From contig DAOVER010000014.1 in the NCBI GenBank assembly GCA_030668875.1, forward strand, positions 1 through 64,000: DNA of 64,000 nucleotides, read 5' to 3'. Positions 1-55,861 of this stretch are shown piece by piece (the first letter of the stretch is position 1; every line of letters starts with the position of its first letter). The DNA is from Candidatus Heimdallarchaeota archaeon (GTDB taxonomy: Archaea; Asgardarchaeota; Heimdallarchaeia; Heimdallarchaeales; Heimdallarchaeaceae). Made by a program: the position numbers and the translations under genes. A model generated the notes under the pieces. It was not told the origin of the DNA. It saw nothing but the letters and a program-made list of their open reading frames with translations, and did not search any database.

Positions 1-1445
1 GGTGATTGAAACCTGGGTTCAACCAGGCTAAGACCCAGTAAACGCCGGAGCTAACTATGAGCTTCTTAAGGTAGGCAAATGCCTTGTCTGCTAATTACAG
101 ACGTCCATGAAGGGACCAACGAGGTGCCCACTGTCTCCACCTAAAGCCTACTGAACCCACAGTCCAGCGAACAGTCTGGAACGCACCATCGGGAAGAGAA
201 GACCCTGTGGAGCTTTACTGCTGTCAGGGGCTGTTGTATTGGTGTGCATACATAGCATAGTCAGGAAACGTTATATCCTACATTCTCCGGGATGTAGGGG
301 AGTTGATCTTGAAATACTGACTTTGTGCATTGGTACGACTTACCTCTCGCGAGGGGGACACCCCCTGCCTGGCAGTTTCACTGGGGCGGTAGCCTCTTGA
401 AAAGATATCAAGAGGGCCCAAAGCCAAGCTCAACCGGGACAGAAATCCGGTGTAGAGTGCAAGGGCAAAAGCTTGGTTGACTGTGAACTCACCAACACGG
501 TTCGCAGATGTTAACGCAGGGCCTAGCGATCCTTCGCAATGCCCTTAGTAGGCGGCGGAGGTGGCAGAAAAGTTACCCCAGGGGTAACTGCATTTCTTTA
601 TTACTTACGTATTAGAGTTGTGCTCTCATCTGGGTAACATTTATCTGTTGCACATTTTTTCAATTGGCAGAGCTAAAATAAATTATTAGAAAATTGCTCC
701 TGTCTTCAATTTCCGGTGAGGAAATTAAATAGGTTTTCGCCAAATTGGCATAATAAAATCTTGAACAGAATGGGTCCATTATCTGTCTGATATCCCAACA
801 AATTGATAAGGAATTCCCGAAAAAGATTAACAACACAACAGATGAAGAGCTACAACAATAAGCGTGAGTGACGATAGGTGACAGGATTTGTAACTACCCT
901 TTACCGGGTTGACAATTGATCCTCGAACCAATGTGCTATGTATTTTGCATAAGTGCAGCCCTGAACGGAGTTGTCGTGGGTAAGAGTTCACATCGACCTC
1001 ACGGCTTGCTACCTCGATGTCGGCTCTTCCTAGCTTGGTCCTGATTCAGGGGCCAAGAGTGGGGTTGTTCGCCCATTAAAAGGGAACGTGAGCTGGGTTT
1101 AGACCGTTGTGAGACAGGTTGGATTCTATCTGATGGTGCTGGCGGGCGATTGAGAGTAAAGTCTCCACAGTACGAGAGGAACAGGCGGCTGGGGCCGCTG
1201 GTGTATCGGTTGTTCTAAAGAGCATTGCCGAGTAGCTAAGCCCTTGTAGATAAGAGCGGAATGCATCTACGCTCGAAGCTACTCTCGAAACGAGTCGTCC
1301 ACTCTGCAACACTATAGAGGGACTGGTGACAGTAACTTTCGTTGTAGACGAGAACGCGGAAAGAAGATCCGTTTGATAGAGCAGGGGTGTACGCGTCGAG
1401 CTTAGGCGAGATGTTTAGCCCACTGCCACTAACTGTTCAAGCGTA
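1..1445 (+). rRNA. 23S (LSU) rRNA, 3' part, truncated at window start; interrupted by an intron-like insertion at ~587-964
   Basis: Conserved LSU blocks: AACTATGAGCTTCTTAAGGTAGGCAAATGCC, AGAAAAGTTACCCCAGGGGTAAC, CACATCGACC...CTACCTCGATGTCGGCTCTTCC, AGTACGAGAGGAAC (sarcin-ricin loop). The 3' end is approximate. Confidence 0.95.
587..964 (+). other. Putative archaeal-type (BHB) intron in 23S rRNA near the peptidyl-transferase centre; no long ORF
   Basis: ~378 nt of non-rRNA sequence separates GTTACCCCAGGGGTA from AC..TTGTCGTGGGTAAGAGTTCACATCGACC. Flanks can fold with GGGG/CCCT as central helix, 3-nt bulges TAA and GAA, and an inner helix CTGCATTT/AAGTGCAG. Exact junctions are uncertain. Confidence 0.65.
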
Positions 1446-1614
1446 GTTAGGCCAAATAGGAATCGGTTCGTCAGATTCTTGGAGAGTTCTTGTCAGCTGA
1501 TTTTAGTTTACATGAAATTTTTTCTTGACAAAAAAATCAGAGATGTGAAAAACATTTTAGTTTACTATTTTTCAACTTAGTAAATCAGCTTTAGAATCAC
1601 TTAGAAAATATTTG

Positions 1615-3216
1615 TCACATTTTTGCTTTTAGTGCATCTTTCTGTTGTAAGTTCATATAGTTTAATAGAGTATTTTCCAATCTAGAGAACCCATAATTTC
1701 TACACTTCTTTATCGCCATATACTGTAAAGCTGGCCCAAGGGGGTCTCCATTCTTATATGCCCCTACCTGAATGAAAGCTTCCATGAAGATACGCATTTC
1801 CAGAACTTCTATTCTATGGAGTCTGTTATTGTATTTCTTTAACAGAGGAGAAATTTTAGTATAGTGCTTGAGTGAAAACAATTGTTGGGCAATAAGGAGA
1901 TCTGCATAAGCATGTTCTATGAATGTAGTTTTACTTGTTGTTATGCGCTTTTCTAAAGTAGCAATACAACTCAGTGCTATCTGTTCCTGATTAATCCATG
2001 TTAACTTTCGTTTTCCAAGCATAAACTCTATTAGATGCTTAACACGATTAATGCTGAAATTATTGATTTCTAATAACTTTTGAAGTTTATCAGAATCGAG
2101 GTCAGAATTAAGGATGAATTCACTCAAAGACATGAAATCACTGTATTGACTTTTACAATTCTCAAAAATCTCATCGATCAGCTCTTGATGCTCCTGAGGA
2201 TCATAATTTCCTAAACGTGAAATATTGTAGAAATTTACAAGATTGAGATTATGAATAATTTGTTTCTCTGTATTCTTATCTAAATGTTTTTTCATAAAAT
2301 CTGATTGGAGAAGAATGTATGCTTCTTTAATTAAAACACAAGCCTGTTCTGTTTTGCCCTGCAATCCTTTAACAATCGCAAAATAAGAGTGAAGAACAAG
2401 AAAATTGCTGAAGTAGATACTGTTATTGTAAATTGGTTTAAGGATATTATAAGCCTCATTGAAATAAGATTCAGCCATTATTAAATTAGCGTTTAGAATA
2501 TAAATCCAACCTGTGAAATAGTAAATTATACCTCTTATATCAAGTGGTAAGTTTTCAAAGAGATATCTATTAGCGAGAATTTGATTGCTCAGGTTTAATG
2601 CTTTCATGTTTTCATGCATTCTGGAATAGATTATCCCTAAAAGTCCAATAGTTTGAGCTAAACTCCTATAGAACCCTCCCTTGAAGAAATAATGCGCACA
2701 ATCTTCTAGAATTTTTACACTTTCAGAATCATGTTCTTCTAACCATTTTTCAATTGCATATGAATAATGTACAAAATGAACAATATACGGGTCTTCTTTT
2801 TTTGACTTATCAATAAGTAAGAAGGCCTTTTCTATGAAAGATTTTCCTTTAACTTTATTTACCTTTATCTTTTCTATAAACCACCAGTATGAATAAGTTA
2901 ATGCTAATCCTTCTTGATTGGAATTTTCTTTAGAAAGATTTTCCATATCATTTGCTATTTTGATGATTTTTTCCAAATTCTCTCTACGATTTTCCAGTAA
3001 CAATATTTTGAGTCCGTACAGATTTACAATTGATTTATAATCATAGAAATTCTTGGCTTTTTCTATTGTTTTCTCAATTAGTTGGATTAAATTTACATTT
3101 GATTTATTATTTAATGTAAAAACCCGAAGTTGTTCTACAATTTGTTTAAATCTATCCAACGTCATATTTTCTTGGATTTGTTGTTCAAAATAATCCTCAT
3201 TCACTCTATAACTCAT
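1615..3216 (-). CDS. TPR-like alpha-helical repeat protein, paralogue 1 (candidate peptide receptor)
   Basis: 533-aa ORF; paralogous to 4066..5652 and the 47826..49414 remnant, with a near-identical C-terminal motif RIEVLEMRIFMEAFIQVGAYKNGDPLGPALQYMAIKKCRxYGFSRLEN; helical-repeat composition. Confidence 0.85.
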   Translation of the reverse strand: MSYRVNEDYFEQQIQENMTLDRFKQIVEQLRVFTLNNKSNVNLIQLIEKTIEKAKNFYDYKSIVNLYGLKILLLENRRENLEKIIKIANDMENLSKENSNQEGLALTYSYWWFIEKIKVNKVKGKSFIEKAFLLIDKSKKEDPYIVHFVHYSYAIEKWLEEHDSESVKILEDCAHYFFKGGFYRSLAQTIGLLGIIYSRMHENMKALNLSNQILANRYLFENLPLDIRGIIYYFTGWIYILNANLIMAESYFNEAYNILKPIYNNSIYFSNFLVLHSYFAIVKGLQGKTEQACVLIKEAYILLQSDFMKKHLDKNTEKQIIHNLNLVNFYNISRLGNYDPQEHQELIDEIFENCKSQYSDFMSLSEFILNSDLDSDKLQKLLEINNFSINRVKHLIEFMLGKRKLTWINQEQIALSCIATLEKRITTSKTTFIEHAYADLLIAQQLFSLKHYTKISPLLKKYNNRLHRIEVLEMRIFMEAFIQVGAYKNGDPLGPALQYMAIKKCRNYGFSRLENTLLNYMNLQQKDALKAKM

Positions 3217-3229
3217 TACTTTCGAACTA

Positions 3230-3253
3230 TTATCCGCAAATTGATTTATAAAG
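3230..3253 (-). promoter_or_regulatory. Putative TATA-type promoter of TPR paralogue 1
   Basis: Minus strand CTTTATAAATCAATTTGCGGATAA; aligned equivalents lie upstream of the other two TPR paralogues. Confidence 0.5.
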
Positions 3254-3409
3254 GTGGATAATTATCCTCAACGAATAGTTGTGAAAAAATGAAATAAATA
3301 AAGAAACATTTGAAAAATGAAGAAATTTGAAATGGAGACCATAATAATGGTAATTATATTCATTTCCATCTTCTAGATTGTATGCTTTTTTCAATAAGTC
3401 TCTCTTTTC

Positions 3410-3478
3410 TTACGGATGCCACAAAGGAGGGGTTATTGCATCGTCTCCATCTTCCGGATCATATTTGTTTTTCATCAT
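3410..3478 (-). CDS. Micropeptide 1: MMKNKYDPEDGDDAITPPLWHP
   Basis: Micro-ORF below the track cutoff; peptide conserved in six copies with many synonymous differences; preceded by GAGTGATG (SD-like GTGAT). Confidence 0.8.
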   Translation of the reverse strand: MMKNKYDPEDGDDAITPPLWHP

Positions 3479-3590
3479 TTTTTCATCACTCTTTTATGTT
3501 ATACTTAGAAGAGACAAAAGATACTAAAAGACAACAAGAAAGAAACTGACAATAAAACAGTTTTACTAGTAGCTATATACAACAAAACAA
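3479..3590 (-). repeat. Conserved leader repeat upstream of micropeptide 1
   Basis: Minus strand ACTAGTAAAAC..TTGTCAGTTTCTTTCTTGTTGTCTTTTAGTAT..CTCTTCTAAGTATAAC..GAGTGATG, shared with other cassettes. Confidence 0.75.
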
Positions 3591-3620
3591 GAGTTTGAAA
3601 AAGAAAAATGGGAAATGAGA

Positions 3621-3692
3621 TTAATTAGGTGTCCACGCAGGGGGTAAAATGTCTTCGTCTCCTTCACCAGGATCATATTTTTGTTTCATCAT
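3621..3692 (-). CDS. Micropeptide 2: MMKQKYDPGEGDEDILPPAWTPN
   Basis: Same family; SD-like GAGTGATGAACA upstream. Confidence 0.8.
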   Translation of the reverse strand: MMKQKYDPGEGDEDILPPAWTPN

Positions 3693-3803
3693 TGTTCATC
3701 ACTCGTTAAGTCATACTTAGAAATGTAAAAACCTACAAAAAGACAACAAGAAAAAAACTGACAATCAACAGTTCTTACTAGTCATATTATCAACAAAATA
3801 AGC
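3693..3803 (-). repeat. Conserved leader repeat upstream of micropeptide 2
   Basis: Minus strand ATGACTAGTAAGAAC..ATTGTCAGTTTTTTTCTTGTTGTCTTTTTGTAGG..TTCTAAGTATGACTTAACGAGTGATG. Confidence 0.75.
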
Positions 3804-3819
3804 CTTTTATAAAAAATCT

Positions 3820-3885
3820 CTATGGTCTCCATAAGGGTGGTAATATGCTTTCGTCTCCATCTTCAGGGTCGTATTTTGTCGTCAT
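3820..3885 (-). CDS. Micropeptide 3: MTTKYDPEDGDESILPPLWRP
   Basis: Same family; SD-like GAGTGATGCAAA upstream. Confidence 0.8.
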   Translation of the reverse strand: MTTKYDPEDGDESILPPLWRP

Positions 3886-3993
3886 TTTTGCATCACTCGA
3901 TTTAGTTATACTTGAAATAGCAAAACCATACTAAAAGACATCAAGAAAGAAACTGACAATAAGGTTGTTTTACTAGTAAACATATCAATAAAA
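3886..3993 (-). repeat. Conserved leader repeat upstream of micropeptide 3
   Basis: Minus strand TTTACTAGTAAAACAACCTTATTGTCAGTTTCTTTCTTGATGTCTTTTAGTATGG..AAGTATAACTAAATCGAGTGATG. Confidence 0.75.
3906..3983 (-). CDS. Possible hydrophobic mini-ORF in leader 3: MFTSKTTLLSVSFLMSFSMVLLFQV
   Basis: ATG-initiated 25-codon frame; the SVSFLLSFSMFLLF-like frame is open in most other leaders, but conservation is also nucleotide-level. Confidence 0.3.
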   Translation of the reverse strand: MFTSKTTLLSVSFLMSFSMVLLFQV

Positions 3994-4065
3994 CAGGCAT
4001 TTTCAATAAGCAGGAGAAATTTAGTAACAAATAATAAACTTCCCAAAGAACCCTCAATTTATTCT

Positions 4066-5652
4066 CTAGATTTTTCTTGTTATTTCCTTCCGTTGCAATT
4101 GTAAGTAATCTAGTAATTTATTTTCCAATCGGGAGAAACCATAATCTCTACATTTTTTTATTGCCATATACTGTAAAGCTGGTCCTAGTGGATCTCCGTT
4201 CTTATATGCGCCTACTTGGATAAAAGCTTCCATGAAAATCCGCATCTCTAGAACCTCAATTCGCTTGAGTCTACTCTCATATTGTTTAAGAAGAGGAGAA
4301 ATTTCCGCGTACCGCTTAAGAGAGAACAGTTGCTGAGCAATAAGGAGATTCGCATTGGCATGTTCTATGAATGTAGTCTTGCTTGTTATTACGCGCTTTT
4401 CTAAAATAGTAATACAGTTCAGAGATTTCTGCTCCTGACTAATTTCCGCTTCTAACTTTTGCTTTTCTAGCATGAATTCAATTAGATGTTTTACTCGATT
4501 AATGCTGAAATTATCTATAGTTAATAACTGTTGAAGTTTATCAAAATCAAAATTGGAGTTAAGGATGAACTCGCTGAAGGTCATAAAATCACTATAATGA
4601 ACCTTACAACCTTCATAGATTTCCTCCATTAATTCCTGATTTTCTTGAGGATTATAGTTGCTTAAACGTGATATATTATAGAATTTTGTTAAATTGTAAG
4701 TATGAGTAATTTGCTTTTTTGTGTTTTCATCCAAGTTTTCCTTGATAAATTCTGTTTGGAGAAGTTTCCCCGCTTCTTTGCACATATCTGCAGCTTGCTT
4801 GGTTTTTCCTTGTAAACCTTTAACAGTAGCAAGATAAGAGTGTAAGACAAGAAAATTGCTGAAGTAAATACTGCTTTTGTAAATCGGTTTTAGGATATTG
4901 TAAGCTTCATTGAAATACGATTCAGCCATTACTAAATCAGCAACTAACATATGACCTAAACCTGTAAAATAATACATTATCCCTTTAACATCAAGAGGTA
5001 AATTCTCAAAGAGAGCTCTGTTAGCAAGAATTTTATTACCCATATCTAATGCTCTCTTACCTTGCTGTCTTCTTGAGTAGATGACACTTAGAAAACTGAA
5101 AGTTTGAGCTAGGCTTCTATAAAACCCCTCTTTATAAAAAAATTTACTACAGTCTTCAAAATCATTTGCTGTTTCAAAATTATGATTCAATACCCAATCT
5201 TCAAAGGCAAGTGAATATTTACAAATATAATAAACATAATTATCCTTTTGTTCATTTTTTGATAAAAGTAATTTTACTTTTCTTAGAGAATTAGTACTTT
5301 CTTTAATTCTCCCTTCTAACTTTAGAATACCCCATTCAATTGAATATGCCAATATTAAACCATCAATATAATTGATTTCTTTTGATATTCTAAACATTTC
5401 AGACAGAAGAAAATTAATTCTCTTTATTGAGCTTCTTTTATGAAATAATTGCTTTATTTCAAGCTCATACAGATTAACAATGGATTTTTTATGATTTAAC
5501 TTTTTACTCCATTTAATTGCTCTTCTTATTATTTCTAAAACAATTTCGGATTTTTCGTTTGCTGAAACTAAACGTAAATTCTTAATTATTCCTGGCAGTT
5601 CTTCATGATTTCTAATATTTTTAATCTGTTTTATTAATCTCTCCTTCTGCAT
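4066..5652 (-). CDS. TPR-like alpha-helical repeat protein, paralogue 2 (candidate peptide receptor)
   Basis: 528-aa ORF, paralogous to 1615..3216. Confidence 0.85.
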   Translation of the reverse strand: MQKERLIKQIKNIRNHEELPGIIKNLRLVSANEKSEIVLEIIRRAIKWSKKLNHKKSIVNLYELEIKQLFHKRSSIKRINFLLSEMFRISKEINYIDGLILAYSIEWGILKLEGRIKESTNSLRKVKLLLSKNEQKDNYVYYICKYSLAFEDWVLNHNFETANDFEDCSKFFYKEGFYRSLAQTFSFLSVIYSRRQQGKRALDMGNKILANRALFENLPLDVKGIMYYFTGLGHMLVADLVMAESYFNEAYNILKPIYKSSIYFSNFLVLHSYLATVKGLQGKTKQAADMCKEAGKLLQTEFIKENLDENTKKQITHTYNLTKFYNISRLSNYNPQENQELMEEIYEGCKVHYSDFMTFSEFILNSNFDFDKLQQLLTIDNFSINRVKHLIEFMLEKQKLEAEISQEQKSLNCITILEKRVITSKTTFIEHANANLLIAQQLFSLKRYAEISPLLKQYESRLKRIEVLEMRIFMEAFIQVGAYKNGDPLGPALQYMAIKKCRDYGFSRLENKLLDYLQLQRKEITRKI

Positions 5653-5670
5653 TCACACCTACTCGGAATC

Positions 5671-5694
5671 TAATCCGTAAATTGATATATAAAG
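5671..5694 (-). promoter_or_regulatory. Putative TATA-type promoter of TPR paralogue 2
   Basis: Minus strand CTTTATATATCAATTTACGGATTA. Confidence 0.5.
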
Positions 5695-5720
5695 AAGAAG
5701 AAAAACAAAATAAAAAGTGG

Positions 5721-5792
5721 TTAATTGGGAAACCACAATGGAGGAGTAAAGGATTCGTCACCGTCTTCAGGATCATATCTTTGTTTCATCAT
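5721..5792 (-). CDS. Micropeptide 4: MMKQRYDPEDGDESFTPPLWFPN (alternative upstream in-frame start at 5816: MTKLSDAK-MMKQ...)
   Basis: Same family; SD-like GAGTGATGCAAA upstream. Confidence 0.8.
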   Translation of the reverse strand: MMKQRYDPEDGDESFTPPLWFPN

Positions 5793-5905
5793 TTTTGCAT
5801 CACTCAATTTAGTCATACTTAGAAGAGCAAAAACATACTAAAAGACAACAAGAAAGAAACTGACAAAGAAATAGTTTTGCTAGTAGAAATATCAACAAAA
5901 TAAGA
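5793..5905 (-). repeat. Conserved leader repeat upstream of micropeptide 4
   Basis: Minus strand CTACTAGCAAAACTATTTCTTTGTCAGTTTCTTTCTTGTTGTCTTTTAGTATGTTTTTGCTCTTCTAAGTATGACTAAATTGAGTGATG. Confidence 0.75.
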
Positions 5906-5934
5906 GTTTGAAAAAGATAAAAGGAAAAAGGACA

Positions 5935-6006
5935 TTAGTTAGGTGTCCACGCTGGTGGCAAAATATCCTCATCTCCTTCTCCAGAATCATATTTTTGTTT
6001 CATCAT
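5935..6006 (-). CDS. Micropeptide 5: MMKQKYDSGEGDEDILPPAWTPN
   Basis: Same family, near-identical to micropeptide 2; SD-like AAGTGATGAACA; the full leader repeat is absent upstream. Confidence 0.8.
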   Translation of the reverse strand: MMKQKYDSGEGDEDILPPAWTPN

Positions 6007-6195: not shown

Positions 6196-9036
6196 ATGAA
6201 CAAAAAGAATAATCTCCATTACGAAAAAAAATACAATTATAAATCAAAAAAACACTCTAACAGAGTACTGAAGAGTTTACTTTCCTTCATTTCTGTTGTA
6301 ACCGTAGGTATTTTTTCTCTATTTTTCCTCTTCCCTGAGATTACAGTATTAGTTCCTTCGACCTTTATTCAATCATTTTCTCATTTCTGTGAGAGTGTAG
6401 GAGCTGCCATAGTTGTATTCTTTACATCCGTATTAACAAACACATATTTTCTCATTTCACTTTTCTGTGTATTATTTTGTTTAACAATCATCATCTTTCT
6501 CCCGTATAAATCAGTTGAAAATAAGAAACAATATACGTTGAAAAAATTAGGTTTACCTTTCTATCGGACGGTAAACATGATGGTAGTTTATTCCTCTTCT
6601 CACAATAATTCCAAGAATTTCAGATTCAATGCATATGCAAATAAGACTCATTCTGCTTTTCTAAGTAGTTTATTAATGAAGTTCAATCTTCTTTCTTTGG
6701 TCTTTTACAAAAACGATGAAAACCTTAACATGCTCTTTCCTATTGTTTCAAAAGGCCTTAGTTTAAAAAACATTCAAAGTAAAATAAGAAGACAAATTGA
6801 TTTTATTTCTAATTCCATTGATACTCATTATGGTAGCAAAATAAAAGAGTTATCAGTTGAACAAGTCAATAAACTTCTAACTTCTTTAGAAAAAATGGAA
6901 TCAAGAACAAAAGTGGATCTTGCTTCTGATCTAATTAATAACTTCAATCTTACAGACCAATTATACAATACTCTCCTGAGGAATGGTACAGGTTCTACAT
7001 GCCTATTGATAAAAGCAGAGAAAAAATCCAATTATGAGTGTCATTTGGCTTCAGATTTGAGCATATTTTCTGAGAACAAACAAATAGAATCTCAGGTTTT
7101 GAACTCATGTGGATTAAAAAAGAAGAAAGCATTGAATTTGTTTCGTAGGAGATTGAAATTCACCCATTTATTATTCTCTTCTCTTTGGAAAAGAAACCTT
7201 TCAAATATTGAGAAGTTATCAACATTATTTCATATTCCTTTCAATTATCAAGGGGGACCAATTTCAATAAAATCTTCTCCCACATCTGCAAATCTCTCTC
7301 CCGAACTTAAGGATCAGAATTTAATGGTAGTGGGTCAAACTGTGGAGGGTGATGAAATAGGACAAGATATCACTATAAACGTTAAAGACCTTCTTCTAAA
7401 TTTAGAAATATTTGGGATGATTGGAAGGGGGAAGACAAAATTGGTCTCTTCATTATTAAAACAGGTTCTAGATTATAATATTAGTGCTCTTGTTTTTGAT
7501 ATTAAAGGAGAATATTCGCGGGCTTTTATAGACGATTCTCGCGTGGAAATTTTTACAATAGGAAAACCTAGGCCATTATGTCTGAATTTATTTGAAACAA
7601 TCGATAGTGAAGATGTACATAATACATTGTTAATAATTGAAGAGATGATGATGTCATCAAATTTAGAATTTACTCCATCAATGAAAAACTTGTTCGAAAC
7701 TGCCTTATTTCAAACACATCGTTCTTCAAAAAGGAATCTACAAACCTTTGTTGAAAATGTGTATAAAGTAGCAGAGGATATTAGATCTAACTCCAATAAC
7801 TCTTATATTCAGCAAACTATTGACGCTGTTTTAAATAGACTAAATTTCATCTTCAATCCGATTAATTATGAGATATTAGGTGCGATACGAACAACTCTGG
7901 ATTTATCTCTTCTGGATAATAACAAAAGCATAATCTTAGATTTGAGCCAGTTTCAAAAACGAGCGGCTAGACCTTCAGACATTTTTTTAATTTGTAATCT
8001 TATTTTGAAAAAACTTTATCGCCACGCTTCTGCAAAAGAAATTACAAACAAACTAAGATATGTTGTTGTTTTAGAAGAAGCTATTAATATTATACCTAAT
8101 TTTTATCGTCCGGAGAGTTCTGCCTCCCTAATTACATCAGAGAACAATTTCTTGTTGGGACGAAGTTTGGGTATCGGACATATAACCGTCTCACAGTTGT
8201 GGTCCAGTGTCAGCAATATTGTTCACGGCAATTCCGCTACAAAAATTATCTTCCGCTCAAGTGAAAAAGCAGATATTATAGGTAAATCTATCAATTTATC
8301 TGAAGATGAGATAAGCAAAGTTCAAAGATTGCCGACCCAGCATTGCTTTATTTTCTTTGAAGGATCAGAAAAGCCTCTTAAGATTAGAACAATTGACTTA
8401 CTAAGTGAACCTATTAGCTTTGCTGAATACCGCTCTAAAATTATAAAACGATATGGACGAAATGTTCTTCCCTTACTTTACAATAATTTTATAGAAATGA
8501 GAACCTCACTTTACCAGAAATACACTCTGAGCACTAAGAAGAAATTTGGCTCAACCAACCAAGGACGTAATCCAAGTAGTGTTCAACCAAGATTAGAGAA
8601 TGTTTCATTCCAAGCAAAGACTGAGGACATAGAGAGAAAGAATATTGATGATTCTATAGCTGAAAAAGAAACAATGGATTTTGTAAATTCAGCTGAGTTC
8701 TTACCTGAAAACTTGTTATGTGAACAATTATGTCCAGAGAAAAATCACTGGAGAGATTGTATTAAGTATAATATTGGAGCAAAAATAATCAAGACCATTA
8801 TTACTAAAAACAGTTCTTCAAAAGAGTTAGCTTTCCTGTTAGATAATCCTACTCAATTGCTATCTATAGTCAAAGATTATGCAGAAAAAAGAAATCTAGA
8901 ATATGATCCGTTTTTAGCATTTTGCACTGTAAAGAGTCTTACTTTGGATTTAGTTTCAGGTGGGATACTAACCTTTCAAGAAGCCTATACTTTTCTTAAG
9001 AAATTTTCTCCCCAAACACAGACAACCTTAACCTGA
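6196..9036 (+). CDS. Membrane-anchored HerA/VirB4-like (DUF87-type) ATPase
   Basis: Two N-terminal hydrophobic segments; Walker A-like GMIGRGKTKL, ALVFDIKGEYSRAF, VVVLEEAINIIPN, GHITVSQLWSSV. Confidence 0.75.
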   Translation: MNKKNNLHYEKKYNYKSKKHSNRVLKSLLSFISVVTVGIFSLFFLFPEITVLVPSTFIQSFSHFCESVGAAIVVFFTSVLTNTYFLISLFCVLFCLTIIIFLPYKSVENKKQYTLKKLGLPFYRTVNMMVVYSSSHNNSKNFRFNAYANKTHSAFLSSLLMKFNLLSLVFYKNDENLNMLFPIVSKGLSLKNIQSKIRRQIDFISNSIDTHYGSKIKELSVEQVNKLLTSLEKMESRTKVDLASDLINNFNLTDQLYNTLLRNGTGSTCLLIKAEKKSNYECHLASDLSIFSENKQIESQVLNSCGLKKKKALNLFRRRLKFTHLLFSSLWKRNLSNIEKLSTLFHIPFNYQGGPISIKSSPTSANLSPELKDQNLMVVGQTVEGDEIGQDITINVKDLLLNLEIFGMIGRGKTKLVSSLLKQVLDYNISALVFDIKGEYSRAFIDDSRVEIFTIGKPRPLCLNLFETIDSEDVHNTLLIIEEMMMSSNLEFTPSMKNLFETALFQTHRSSKRNLQTFVENVYKVAEDIRSNSNNSYIQQTIDAVLNRLNFIFNPINYEILGAIRTTLDLSLLDNNKSIILDLSQFQKRAARPSDIFLICNLILKKLYRHASAKEITNKLRYVVVLEEAINIIPNFYRPESSASLITSENNFLLGRSLGIGHITVSQLWSSVSNIVHGNSATKIIFRSSEKADIIGKSINLSEDEISKVQRLPTQHCFIFFEGSEKPLKIRTIDLLSEPISFAEYRSKIIKRYGRNVLPLLYNNFIEMRTSLYQKYTLSTKKKFGSTNQGRNPSSVQPRLENVSFQAKTEDIERKNIDDSIAEKETMDFVNSAEFLPENLLCEQLCPEKNHWRDCIKYNIGAKIIKTIITKNSSSKELAFLLDNPTQLLSIVKDYAEKRNLEYDPFLAFCTVKSLTLDLVSGGILTFQEAYTFLKKFSPQTQTTLT

Positions 9037-47500: not shown

Positions 47501-47592
47501 AACTAGAAAAACTGGGGGAATGGCGGTTTCTTTCTTGTTGTCTTTTAGTATGTTCTTACTCTTCTAAGTATGACTTAATCGAGTGATGAACA
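47501..47592 (+). repeat. Conserved leader repeat upstream of micropeptide 6
   Basis: ACTAGAAAAACT..GGTTTCTTTCTTGTTGTCTTTTAGTATGTTCTTACTCTTCTAAGTATGACTTAATCGAGTGATGAACA. Confidence 0.75.
47520..47567 (+). CDS. Possible hydrophobic mini-ORF in leader 6: MAVSFLLSFSMFLLF
   Basis: ATG-initiated 15-codon frame equivalent to other leaders. Confidence 0.25.
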   Translation: MAVSFLLSFSMFLLF

Positions 47593-47664
47593 ATGATGAA
47601 ACAAGTATATGACCCCGAACCTGGCGACGATGATATAGGACCACCATTGTGGTTTCCTAATTAA
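47593..47664 (+). CDS. Micropeptide 6: MMKQVYDPEPGDDDIGPPLWFPN
   Basis: Same family as the five copies 42 kb away; SD-like GAGTGATGAACA. Confidence 0.8.
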   Translation: MMKQVYDPEPGDDDIGPPLWFPN

Positions 47665-47825: not shown

Positions 47826-49414
47826 TTGGTGAGTGTTGTGTTGGATCCTAATCTATGGAATAAAGTCAAATTAGTTAAAACAAAGGAAGATTTAAGATGT
47901 TTTATTGATGTCTTGAGAATTATTGCAGCTAATGAAAAATCAGAAGAAGTAAGAGAGCTCATTAATGAAACGATTAAGAAATCTCTAGAAATTGAGGATG
48001 GTATTTCTCGTATTCATCTGTACAAATTGGAAATAAAGCAGGTTTTTCATCAAATTACAGAATTACCTAAAGCTGAGAAAAAACTAAAAGAAATGAAAAA
48101 CAGTCAATTGAGCGAAATTACAAAGATGGTTTAATTCTTAGCCTTTCAATTGAATGGGGAATTGAAAAACTAAAGGGAAACAAGGAGGATAGTAAAAGAG
48201 CCATTACTCAATGCATGACTCTGTTAGAAAACAATAATGCACGCGATGAATATATCTATCATATTTGCAGATACATTTATGCAACTGAACAGTGGATAGA
48301 AGAACACAACTACCAATGTTCAAGCATCCTTGAGGAGCTTATTCCTTATTTTCATCGAAAAGGTTTCCACAGAAGCATTGCACAAATTCTAGGAATATTG
48401 TCAATTATATATCAACACACTCAAAATGAAGCAAAAGCAAGTTATATAAGCGAACAGTTATTTAGCAATAAATATCAAATTAATCAACAGTCTGATGATT
48501 TCCAAGTAATATCTTATTATTTGGCTGGTGTAGGGAAATTATTAGGTCACAATTTGAAACAAGCAGAGAATCTGTTTAATGAATCTTATGTCTTGTTAAA
48601 TAAACAACTACAGCAGAGTAGTTACTACTCTTATTATTACATTAGATTGTTATCGCATATGGCGACTGTTCAAGCTCTGCAAGGTAAAATTGCTCTTTCA
48701 TATGGAAATATTGGGAAAATTGAAAAATTACTTGAAGATGATTTCTTTTCAAAAAATATGGAACCATATAGCAAGAAACAAGTTCCACACTCTTTGAATT
48801 TAGTCAAATTCTATGTAAAATCGCGGTTTTATGGCTTTAAAACAGAGAACATTCAACAACTTATAGGACAGATATGTAGAGGAATTGAAGGTAATTATAG
48901 TGATTCAATCCTTCTCAGTGAATTCATTCTGAATGCAGAATTAAATAAAAAACTGCTAGAAAAACTAATTGAATCAAATAATGCAAGCTTACTACGAATT
49001 AAACACATCATAGAATATATGTTACTAAAATCACAGAACAATAATGAAGATGTTGTCGATTCTTATACAAATGCTCTGAATAGAAAATTGAAGACTAAAA
49101 GGATTACATTTATTGAACGAGCATTTGCTAAACTTCTACTTGCTCAAGAACTCTTTAATAGGTAAAAATATTCAGAAATCACCCCTCTATTGAAGAAATA
49201 CGAGAGCAGGCTACAGCGAATTGAAGTCTTGGAAATGCGGGTTTTTATGGAAGCTTTCATCCAAGTAGGAGCGTATAAGAACGGAGATCCTCTTGGTCCA
49301 GCTTTACAGTATATGGCAATAAAGAAATGTAGAGATTATGGGTTCTCTAGATTGGAAAACAAACTGCTAGATTACTTACAACTACAGCGAAAGGAGATTA
49401 CAAGAACAATATAG
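47826..49414 (+). pseudogene. TPR-like paralogue 3, disrupted by one frameshift (~48100-48120) and one in-frame stop (49163-49165)
   Basis: Three ORF fragments (47826-48134, 48215-49165, 49190-49414) align end to end with paralogue 2; fragments 2 and 3 share a frame. Confidence 0.8.
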
Positions 49415-49666
49415 AACTCAGGTGAGGGGTTCTTATGCTATTTGGAGGTTTTTTGTTTGTCAAAACTCTTCAAGTTACACTGAAATTTTTCTTGAATTGG
49501 TTAGACCTTAGCAGAGTGAGTATAGACACCTTGCGATGATCTCTAAGAAATACTCTCAACTAGCTCTTGTCTAAGGCGACAGGGGAACAACAACTCATCA
49601 TAAATCCTATAAATATAGCATTTAAATTTTCTTTGAGAATCGTCTAATAAATTCACTACAAGGTTA

Positions 49667-53074: not shown

Positions 53075-55861
53075 CTAATCCTTTTTCTCTTTGCTAAATT
53101 CTCTGTAATTCGAGCTCATGGTTAAATCAACAATACCTGTTCCCAGAGCAATGGTTTGACCAACGATAACATTTTCTGTGATGCCTTCTAGAGGATCATA
53201 CTCACCTCGAATTGCAGCATCCAAAAGATGTTTTACAGTTACTTCAAAAGCAGCTCTTGCAAAAACCGAACTTTTCTTTCCAGAAACACCATGACGACCA
53301 ATTTGTAATATTTCACCAGTGTGAGTCATTAAATCAGCAACTAGCATTACGTGACGTTTATCGACATCCAATCCTTGTTCTTTCATAACAGATAGTGATT
53401 CTTTAACTAATGCATTTCTTGAAGCTTCAATACCAAGTGTTTCTGCAATTTGATTTATATCTGTTGTATAACATCTTGTAGGATCTACACCAGGAATACG
53501 AAGCAGTTCGCTGAAATTACTTCCTTCACTTTGCAAGAAATATTTTCCTTTTCTGTCTTTCATCACAACAACACGAGAGACGTTTTTTATCCCCTTTATT
53601 GGTATTTCACGAACTTTTTCAGCAAGCTTAGGTAAATCAGAAAATTTCAACTCTTTAAGGGGCGAGATAATAATTGTATTCGTTTCTTCTGGGTCAATTT
53701 CAACTTTACATTCTTTTCGTCGCAATTGTATTTTCTTAACAACTGTTTGAGGTTCAATTCCTTTATCTTTTAAGAGTATTTCATCTAATCTGATTCTTAT
53801 TGTTCCTTCTGAAAAACTATGAATGATACTTTGAGCAATTTTGTTGACAGTTGTAAGTTCGATTCTTCTAGAAACCTGTTTTGCTAATTCTTCCTCTTTC
53901 TCAGTGTGTTGGTCAAGATAGATTAACATTGTTGGAGTGCTTGGATTTTTTCTGGCATCGAGAATTTCAATAAGACGTGGTAATCCTCGTAAAACAGACA
54001 TCTCTGCAACACCCGAATAATGGAATGTTTGAAGAGTATTATGAGTGATTAATCCTTCTGCAGTCATAAATGTCTCTAACTCTGATACAGCGAAATCGTA
54101 AACATAATCTGTTGGAGAGTTAATAGCCTCAAGTTTTACTATTTCATCCCAGATAACATCACTATTATACACACGTTCTAAGATTTTGATTTTATCAGAG
54201 ATATCAATTTTCATTTCATTAGCTTTTTGCTTGAACATACCAATATATCTACCGCAGGTACGACGACCAATAAGCTGTTTCGTAGTAAATTTCTTTGTCA
54301 AGCGAGAGGGGATCTTAAGCAGTACTTGTAATTCATCAAATAGAGTGCCAATACCAGGAATCATATCTAATAAATCATATGTTATACCACCATTCGTTAT
54401 TCGTTCCTCTTCAATCTCTGCTAGTTTATAGAGTGCTTCTTTTTTATAGGGTATTTCAGCACCAATTAAATCTCTGAATTCTGGAGCATATCTTGCTGGA
54501 ATAGCAAGTGTATATTCTACATTCTTCTCTGATTTTGTTGTAAAAATCCCTAACCGGGATAAAAGAAGGCATATTCCATCCCTCAATCTTTTTGATTTTG
54601 AGCTAGCTCTAATCATTCCACGTTCAACACTAATGTTACCATCGCCATCAAAATATCCTCTAAGAATGCTACCAATAAAGTTAGGATTAGTGTTGAGTAT
54701 CCAAGTAGGAGCAAATTTTGTTTCAGAAGTCCTTCCACACATCCTTTCAAAGAGTTTTGAAAGAAGGGTTGAATGTAGGTGTGTTGTTATACTTGCTCCA
54801 TATTCACCTTCTTTTTCTGTAGTATGATGGTTTATTCCCAAGGATTCTGCATATTCAATAGCATGCTCTCTATATTCTTCAAATTTATTCGTAATAGCAA
54901 TAGTTGTACCTGTATTATTCCCTTCAGCCAAATATGCGCCAATAAACCAACCAAAAGTCTCATTAAGTTCAAATTTTTCTGGAATCTTTGTATGAGCACT
55001 GTGATGAACTTTGGGGTAAACATATCCAGACTCCAATGTTTCATCTTTATTAGTTTTTAAAGCTACCCTCAAACCATCTTCTTTCACTGGTACAGTATAC
55101 GATTTACCATATCCTTTATGACAATTAGTACCTAAAGAAGCTGCTATCGCAATTTCAGTGCCATACCAAACTTCGTTTTTAGGTAGATATTGTTCTAAAG
55201 ATAGAAAGGTCATTGGATTATGTGCTGGTAAAGATGCAACTACCGGAATTCTATCACCAATTCTCAAATCCCGTCCTTGAATAGGAACAATTTCATTACT
55301 TTTACGTATAACAAAGGAGTGTGCAAAAGTCGCGACTATTTTTCTCCCGCTTCGTGTTGCTATTTGAAGCAATTCACCATTAGGTAAGTGTCTGCTGACT
55401 TGTAATAATTTTTGCCAGTTAATTGTTTCATTTTTCCCTAATCCGGGAACATAAACTTCTATGTTAGGCGGAATATCACACACTATACTTTCGATATAGT
55501 CATCAAGCTCGTAAGCATCATGTTGTTCAATTAATTCATCAACAAACTCACCAATTTTAACAACATCTGTTTTATCACCAATTTTAACAACTACTAATTC
55601 GTTACCTGTTAAACTCATCTGTGTTCCCGGTTCTCCAATAGATTGGGCAGCGACTGTTCCTACCGCACTGCCCGGGTCTATTTGAGCAAACTCATAACTG
55701 TTAATAATTTCTGTAATTATCTCTTCAAGTTGATTTTTCCTTACTCTCTTACCCTTTAACTCCTTTCTTAACACTTCAACAATTGAATCTGGAACAAGTT
55801 TCTTCTTCAAAAATATATTCAAACGATTTTCAATTTGGTCTTTATCAAGTATTTGTGCCAT
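53075..55861 (-). CDS. rpoA2: RNA polymerase subunit A'' (Rpb1 C-terminal part) containing an intein
   Basis: GTVAAQSIGEPGTQM / TLQTFHYSGVAEMSVLRGLPRLIEILDARKNPS exteins. Confidence 0.95.
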   Translation of the reverse strand: MAQILDKDQIENRLNIFLKKKLVPDSIVEVLRKELKGKRVRKNQLEEIITEIINSYEFAQIDPGSAVGTVAAQSIGEPGTQMSLTGNELVVVKIGDKTDVVKIGEFVDELIEQHDAYELDDYIESIVCDIPPNIEVYVPGLGKNETINWQKLLQVSRHLPNGELLQIATRSGRKIVATFAHSFVIRKSNEIVPIQGRDLRIGDRIPVVASLPAHNPMTFLSLEQYLPKNEVWYGTEIAIAASLGTNCHKGYGKSYTVPVKEDGLRVALKTNKDETLESGYVYPKVHHSAHTKIPEKFELNETFGWFIGAYLAEGNNTGTTIAITNKFEEYREHAIEYAESLGINHHTTEKEGEYGASITTHLHSTLLSKLFERMCGRTSETKFAPTWILNTNPNFIGSILRGYFDGDGNISVERGMIRASSKSKRLRDGICLLLSRLGIFTTKSEKNVEYTLAIPARYAPEFRDLIGAEIPYKKEALYKLAEIEEERITNGGITYDLLDMIPGIGTLFDELQVLLKIPSRLTKKFTTKQLIGRRTCGRYIGMFKQKANEMKIDISDKIKILERVYNSDVIWDEIVKLEAINSPTDYVYDFAVSELETFMTAEGLITHNTLQTFHYSGVAEMSVLRGLPRLIEILDARKNPSTPTMLIYLDQHTEKEEELAKQVSRRIELTTVNKIAQSIIHSFSEGTIRIRLDEILLKDKGIEPQTVVKKIQLRRKECKVEIDPEETNTIIISPLKELKFSDLPKLAEKVREIPIKGIKNVSRVVVMKDRKGKYFLQSEGSNFSELLRIPGVDPTRCYTTDINQIAETLGIEASRNALVKESLSVMKEQGLDVDKRHVMLVADLMTHTGEILQIGRHGVSGKKSSVFARAAFEVTVKHLLDAAIRGEYDPLEGITENVIVGQTIALGTGIVDLTMSSNYREFSKEKKD
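54038..55615 (-). mobile_element. RpoA'' intein (526 aa) with LAGLIDADG-type homing endonuclease
   Basis: N-terminal splice block SLTGNELVVVKIGD, C-terminal VYDFAVSELETFMTAEGLITHN|T; endonuclease motifs WFIGAYLAEGN and LRGYFDGDGNIS. Confidence 0.93.

Follow-up and report, generated by a model that had tools for sequence, protein, structure and literature searches.

What do the micro open reading frames (ORFs) near one end of a Heimdallarchaeota contig encode, and what are their products for? The window, that is, the whole stretch of DNA analysed here, comprises 64,000 nt (contig DAOVER010000014.1 of assembly GCA_030668875.1, our contig C9) of a 3.2 Mb genome. On its minus strand, between positions 3410 and 6006, five micro-ORFs stand upstream of two genes for tetratricopeptide repeat (TPR) proteins, and a sequence-only reading had proposed this arrangement as an archaeal analogue of the RRNPP systems, in which TPR receptors are paired with small peptides. 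The best explanation that we can offer is that the locus consists of two units, arranged in tandem, of a ligand-receptor system specific to this lineage. All genomes analysed are draft metagenome-assembled genomes (MAGs); AB_125, HM4_B41, 7H_bin003 and bin51 are among the Candidatus Heimdallarchaeota MAGs that are near relatives of the window genome.

The six micro-ORFs quoted by the sequence-only reading were all found where it had placed them, each with a Shine-Dalgarno-like GTGATG directly before its start, and its gene order p5-p4-TPR2-p3-p2-p1-TPR1 is correct. The first unit (minus strand) contains TPR1 (1615-3216, 533 aa), the putative receptor of p1 to p3, recognised as an ORF with paralogs and a weak Pfam TPR_12 match (E 3e-4), together with three ORFs carrying the family pattern: p1, MMKNKYDPEDGDDAITPPLWHP (3410-3478), the closest intact peptide to TPR1; p2, MMKQKYDPGEGDEDILPPAWTPN (3621-3692); and p3, MTTKYDPEDGDESILPPLWRP (3820-3885). 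The second unit, on the same strand, contains TPR2 (4066-5652, 528 aa), the putative receptor of p4 and p5 and a TPR solenoid in its AlphaFold2 model. Its closest peptide is p4, MMKQRYDPEDGDESFTPPLWFPN (5721-5792), an ORF with an additional in-frame ATG upstream (start 5816), and its second is p5, MMKQKYDSGEGDEDILPPAWTPN (5935-6006), an ORF with the family pattern. Another genome has a TPR2 counterpart with 78% identity, and the peptide next to it is identical to p4. TPR1 and TPR2 are paralogous, as had been noted, and share 59% identity. What had been overlooked is that the sixth peptide, p6, MMKQVYDPEPGDDDIGPPLWFPN (47593-47664, plus strand, recognised by its sequence and the family pattern), adjoins a broken third TPR gene lying directly 3' of it. 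This TPR3 pseudogene (about 47826-49415, plus strand) carries a frameshift and stop codons and was recognised by a 437-residue match at 47% identity that contains an internal TAA. Also overlooked were a decayed peptide copy between p1 and TPR1 (KKAYNLEDGNEYN..., 3360-3394, minus strand), assigned by sequence to repeat family D4 and with its frame lost, and six further copies on contig C95 of the same genome, five intact and one decayed by conversion of Trp to a stop, all beside TPR paralogs.

A search at the DNA level for the peptide pattern YD...GD....PPxW, with one mismatch allowed, gave 125 matches in 21 of 58 related genomes, and the reversed pattern gave none in the same search. Six members are present in the window, as described before, but the family is far larger. 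Across 232 Asgard genomes, a second pattern (first Tyr omitted, no mismatches) matched in those same 21 only, all of which fall in two genera of one Heimdallarchaeota family. A TPR profile built from 37 proteins retrieved 22 genomes, namely the same 21 plus one with a distant relative only, and none of the 232 has the peptide without the TPR family. Peptide and TPR thus strictly co-occur (21 versus 22 genomes), in keeping with the pairing that had been suggested. For a single-copy TPR relative of the C19 type (about 24% identical), no peptide was detected. When the fetched loci were scanned with a peptide profile, 155 matches were obtained, against 0 on reversed sequence.

The peptides follow the consensus [YFHN]DPxxGDxx[ILV]xPPxWxP, are mostly 17-24 aa long and have no leader. 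Features outside the search pattern are near-constant as well: in nearly all of 117 peptides the start codon lies 1-6 residues before the core, the stop lies 2-3 codons past the Trp, and a Pro stands two residues past it. Larger proteins ending in the motif were considered and rejected, since the in-family matches of a looser pattern were almost only peptide genes; outside the family this pattern gave few matches, equal to the control rate. A virus or phage origin was likewise rejected: no TPR relative occurred in viral contigs or phage records, and two peptide-pattern matches in viral contigs sit within long unrelated ORFs. The micro-ORFs are genuine peptide genes, well beyond chance.

Their synonymous codon variation had been read as a sign of selection on the peptide, and the larger family bears this out. 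Among 117 peptide cores, 60% of nucleotide differences fall in third codon positions, and the ratio of nonsynonymous to synonymous differences (pN/pS) is 0.29 when all are taken together and 0.11 among close pairs, a relation that is reversed in shifted frames; these values of about 0.1-0.3 come from copies collected by a pattern that itself fixes some residues. Conservation extends over the whole peptide, including the DPxxGD half, without a division into leader and core. Judged from pN/pS, the peptides are thus shown to be under protein-level selection, and they are almost certainly translated.

The peptide genes keep close company with the TPR genes. For 95 of the 125 peptides the nearest TPR gene has the same orientation and follows at most 1.5 kb downstream, and 58 of 68 intact close TPR genes have a pattern peptide upstream. 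The profile scan, which covered the fetched loci except G007:C141, found variant peptides such as YDPSEPGDEHITPPIWSP, YDPDGDGDEDIGPPLWRP and ..PPMYFPN upstream of the remaining fetched TPR genes. The final set comprises 70 intact TPR genes, and in 64 of them a peptide is encoded at most 900 nt upstream, usually 50-180 nt ahead of the TPR start. Two of the six exceptions are technical misses (a GTG start and a start-codon call), and the other four come from a remote clade (about 20% identity) in which the peptides are convergent with the TPR gene and lie beyond its 3' end, so that a peptide gene stands close to the TPR gene in all 70. In this clade the TPR genes are often bracketed by inward-facing peptides, one per side. 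Up to three peptides accompany one TPR gene.

Several peculiarities of these arrays deserve mention. Inward-facing peptide cassettes flank TPR genes at loci L060 (10375-12420), L036, L099, L104, L109 and L001 (8600-11250); the inverted copies at L060 are identical over 114 nt, and recombination between such copies could flip the TPR gene. A mobile element with terminal inverted repeats was rejected as an explanation, since the repeated DNA is short (33-177 nt) and no transposase is found among the recurrent neighbours. At L142 (2683-4410) and L115 (1999-3726), peptide and TPR gene share one frame with a single stop and 60 nt between them, and read-through would yield a peptide-TPR fusion; over all pairs, in-frame spacing is apparently no commoner than chance. 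The survey of recurrent neighbours revealed no conserved third gene family. Orc1/Cdc6 does recur at the arrays in 10 genomes, and an FtsX-type permease in 9, but both probably owe this to synteny.

The TPR2 model is an all-helical TPR solenoid (mean predicted local distance difference test score, pLDDT, 91.8; predicted template-modelling score 0.89), with TPR-like helices from end to end. Foldseek matched many TPR proteins with the TPR model. Among the 50 matches listed, the highest target-normalised template-modelling (TM) scores belong to RapI (0.56), pLS20 Rap with Phr* (0.54) and NprR with NprX (0.50), which do not have the best E-values among those 50. Membership in known families was rejected, as only weak TPR matches were returned: the protein has no sequence match to PDB entries and no NCBIfam or PHROG match, the pair has no PADLOC match, the TPR profile search returned IFIT and designed repeat proteins without any RRNPPA protein, and Pfam scans of 37 family members found no helix-turn-helix (HTH) domain. 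In alignment A1, the C-terminal block (~430-528) is much more conserved across paralogs than the remainder, with a nearly invariant portion at about residues 465-510, as if gene conversion had homogenised it or a common partner holds it.

Do peptide and TPR protein change together? Between genomes, peptide distance tracks TPR distance with a Mantel r of 0.55; the pairs are related by descent, and within-genome shuffles gave a mean of 0.19, with 0 of 2000 as high. The correlation is 0.56 for the variable N-terminal part of the TPR protein versus 0.31 for the C-terminal part. In the 22 TPR genes with at least two peptides, r is 0.65 for the nearest peptide and 0.34 for the second. By position, residues 4-5 of the peptide covary mostly with TPR residues around 320-350, residues 8-11 with those around 265-340, residue 14 with those around 190-200 and residue 16 with those around 90-130. 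With genome-conditioned scores this antiparallel order has a rho of -0.89 to -0.93 (p 0.003-0.006), and with a simpler score it was negative in every genome bootstrap. Because the gradient lies inside 45 nt, linkage alone is insufficient to account for it.

Docking was modelled on a natural in-frame stretch (L113:624-2378) whose stops were read as Gly, which gives one read-through chain of peptide, intergenic linker and TPR protein. In the AlphaFold2 prediction the linker is disordered (pLDDT 25-46), and the peptide is placed from residue 4 on, with a pLDDT of 86 for residues 11-20. Since an acidic 22-mer on its own should not reach this pLDDT, the model suggests that the peptide packs on the solenoid, and docking of the peptide on the TPR solenoid is predicted. 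Taken with the covariation, we infer that peptide and TPR protein very probably bind directly, and the peptide is likely to be a dedicated ligand of the adjacent TPR protein. In the mechanism that we propose, the as-translated intracellular peptide would lie extended and antiparallel along the TPR superhelix. Its DPxxGD end would rest against the C-terminal half, around TPR residues 320-445, and the N-terminal half, around residues 60-235, would take up the PPxWxP end. Occupancy would decide which state the TPR protein adopts, with the nearly invariant C-terminal block (about 465-510) as the readout, and the arrays would expand by duplication and decay into parallel pairs with different specificity. 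That binding serves as a regulatory switch is a conjecture to which we incline only slightly.

Several points weigh against this picture. The antiparallel signal is weaker under global shuffles (rho -0.18 to -0.86); only seven positions and 52 pairs, related to one another, underlie it; some correlation would also arise from a neighbour that was duplicated along with the TPR gene but does not interact; and a gene family for the output partner is absent among the recurrent neighbours, synteny aside. Because the global shuffles weaken rho, we regard the antiparallel covariation as good but not conclusive.

Where would the peptide act? The sequence-only reading had seen no export signal in the core peptide, and this holds throughout: none of 117 peptides has a signal sequence, and in nearly all only 1-6 residues precede the core. 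Since the peptides lack an export signal, action in the producing cell is our first choice and seems somewhat more likely than not. Its main rival is leaderless export, in which the same pair would work as a pheromone system: a transporter would carry the peptide out of the cell, and after re-import it would serve kin as a quorum or kin signal. Leaderless communication peptides (LCP) do occur in Firmicutes (PMC10518010), and the arrays, with their divergent pairs and their gain and loss of copies, recall pheromone systems. However, besides the missing signal sequences, no exporter, protease or permease recurs at the arrays save the FtsX-type permease, apparently by synteny, and we consider a pheromone role unlikely.

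A conserved, promoter-like 31-nt upstream element was located by an element search of the genome at p1 (3520-3550), p2 (3732-3762, 3 mismatches), p3 (3927-3957) and p4 (5834-5864), all on the minus strand, and at p6 (47522-47552, plus strand). Its 7 occurrences in the genome are every one at a peptide gene, including the decayed C95 copy, and a wider regulon was rejected because of this restriction. Upstream of the peptide genes, three features are each enriched 8- to 12-fold over shuffled sequence: a TGTCA box near -72, a TATA element resembling TTTTA[AG]TA near -50 and, near -10, a Shine-Dalgarno sequence. Putative TATA-type promoters were also recognised, by sequence and by enrichment over all TPR genes, between p1 and TPR1 (CTTTATAAATCAATTTGCGGAT, 3232-3253, minus strand) and between p4 and TPR2 (CTTTATATATCAATTTACGGAT, 5673-5694, minus strand). 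A TATA element lies near the TPR start in 51 of 64 cases (shuffled, 19), and 52 of 64 have a TATA-like element in the interval from the peptide stop to the TPR start, so peptide and TPR genes appear to have separate promoters. In one TPR class (L036, L061, L063, L066, L071, L080, L081) the TATA element is directly preceded by ACTGCAATYTAACTGCAAT, a direct repeat that resembles an operator.

These data bear most on the proposal that the micro-ORF is an upstream ORF attenuator, a leader peptide on which ribosome pausing at the PPxWxP-stop end controls TPR transcription or translation in cis, with no role in trans. Pro-Pro motifs can slow ribosomes, and the peptide gene does stand 5' of the TPR gene, at the usual short distance. 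However, a second putative promoter, located past the peptide stop, usually serves the TPR gene, which disfavours an attenuator; a TPR gene may have as many as three peptides; some peptide genes converge on the TPR gene or follow it, which a cis-only leader that is always 5' does not accommodate; and the entire peptide is conserved, including the DPxxGD half, and covaries with the TPR protein sequence. We therefore hold this explanation to be improbable.

A toxin-antitoxin pair, in which a short toxic peptide is neutralised by TPR binding, would fit a small gene beside a larger one, the arrays and the frequent decay of copies, but the peptides are acidic and hydrophilic without a membrane segment, and PADLOC returned no match. 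Moreover, 9 of 11 broken close TPR genes keep a strict-pattern peptide upstream, and a toxin left without its antitoxin is therefore unlikely unless other paralogs cover for it; this makes the toxin-antitoxin reading very doubtful. Least probable of all is a ribosomally synthesised and post-translationally modified peptide precursor, the substrate of a modification enzyme with the TPR protein aiding maturation, which short, variable genes with conserved motifs might suggest, but no modifying enzyme, protease or transporter recurs at the arrays and the wholly conserved peptide has no leader/core division.

Elsewhere, the window contains the 3' part of an archaeal 23S rRNA (1-1452, plus strand; 1025 model positions across 1452 nt) with about 400 nt of inserted sequence, AT-rich at about 590-890, which is perhaps an rRNA intron or expansion. 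Divergent from p5 lies the gene for a 946-aa HerA/TrwB-type ATPase (6196-9036, plus strand; Pfam DUF87, E 6e-15, and TrwB_AAD_bind) with predicted hydrophobic N-terminal segments and PADLOC HerA-type matches. A C-terminal RNA polymerase Rpb1 subunit (53075-55861, minus strand) carries an intein with a LAGLIDADG endonuclease.

How does the ligand-receptor system compare with those already known? We found no description of this peptide-TPR system in the open literature, and genes of ~20 codons easily escape annotation. Firmicutes and their mobile elements are the described source of genetically encoded peptide-TPR receptor pairs (PMC9765709). Archaeal quorum sensing is established in few cases, which involve small or unidentified molecules, with no peptide-TPR pair described there (PMC12240190); if exported, the present peptides would have archaeal signalling in common with the cases of Methanosaeta and Haloferax. 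The family offers about 70 putative natural pairs of receptor and ligand whose specificity code is readable. They could be tested with synthetic peptides and recombinant protein without culturing, and their hosts are Asgard archaea, the group closest to eukaryotes.

As to the proposed archaeal RRNPP analogue, the peptide-receptor pairing is well supported by co-occurrence, covariation and predicted docking, but kinship is not, there being no HTH, no sequence match and only the general TPR fold in common. RRNPPA receptors other than Rap have an HTH, and Rap and NprR have a 3-helix bundle at the N-terminus, against which the model here shows TPR-like helices throughout. NprR/NprX, PlcR/PapR and AimR/AimP also combine a TPR receptor with a peptide encoded nearby, but these receptors are DNA-binding HTH proteins with secreted peptides, whereas here there is neither HTH nor export signal. 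RopB and its LCP share a very short leaderless peptide encoded beside a TPR receptor (PMC10518010); RopB, however, is an HTH regulator of Firmicutes, and the peptides here are longer with a strongly conserved motif. The closest likeness is to Rap/Phr (RRNPPA, Firmicutes), with an HTH-less TPR receptor, adjoining small peptide genes, sometimes two per receptor, and many paralogous pairs per genome (PMC9765709). The Heimdallarchaeota TPR protein likewise lacks an HTH and has adjoining small peptide genes, sometimes several per receptor, and RapI (0.56) and the Rap-Phr* complex (0.54) head the target-normalised TM scores among the 50 listed. It differs in that no sequence homology was detected, the peptide gene lies upstream with its own promoter, there is no secretion signal or propeptide, the DPxxGD...PPxWxP motif has no counterpart, and the system is archaeal with a nearly invariant C-terminal block. 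Because sequence homology, HTH and secreted propeptide are all lacking, our best reading is that the system would work like Rap/Phr yet not be an RRNPP member. It is an evenly balanced question whether this is an archaeal system independent of RRNPPA, in which unprocessed cytoplasmic peptides of ~20 residues would switch paralogous TPR hubs with one common C-terminal output block, and the pairs, diversifying within arrays, would form a specificity code peculiar to this lineage of relatives of the ancestor of eukaryotes. If true, a dedicated family of unexported peptides and receptors in Heimdallarchaeota would mean that the design of peptide-TPR receptor pairs arose independently in archaea.

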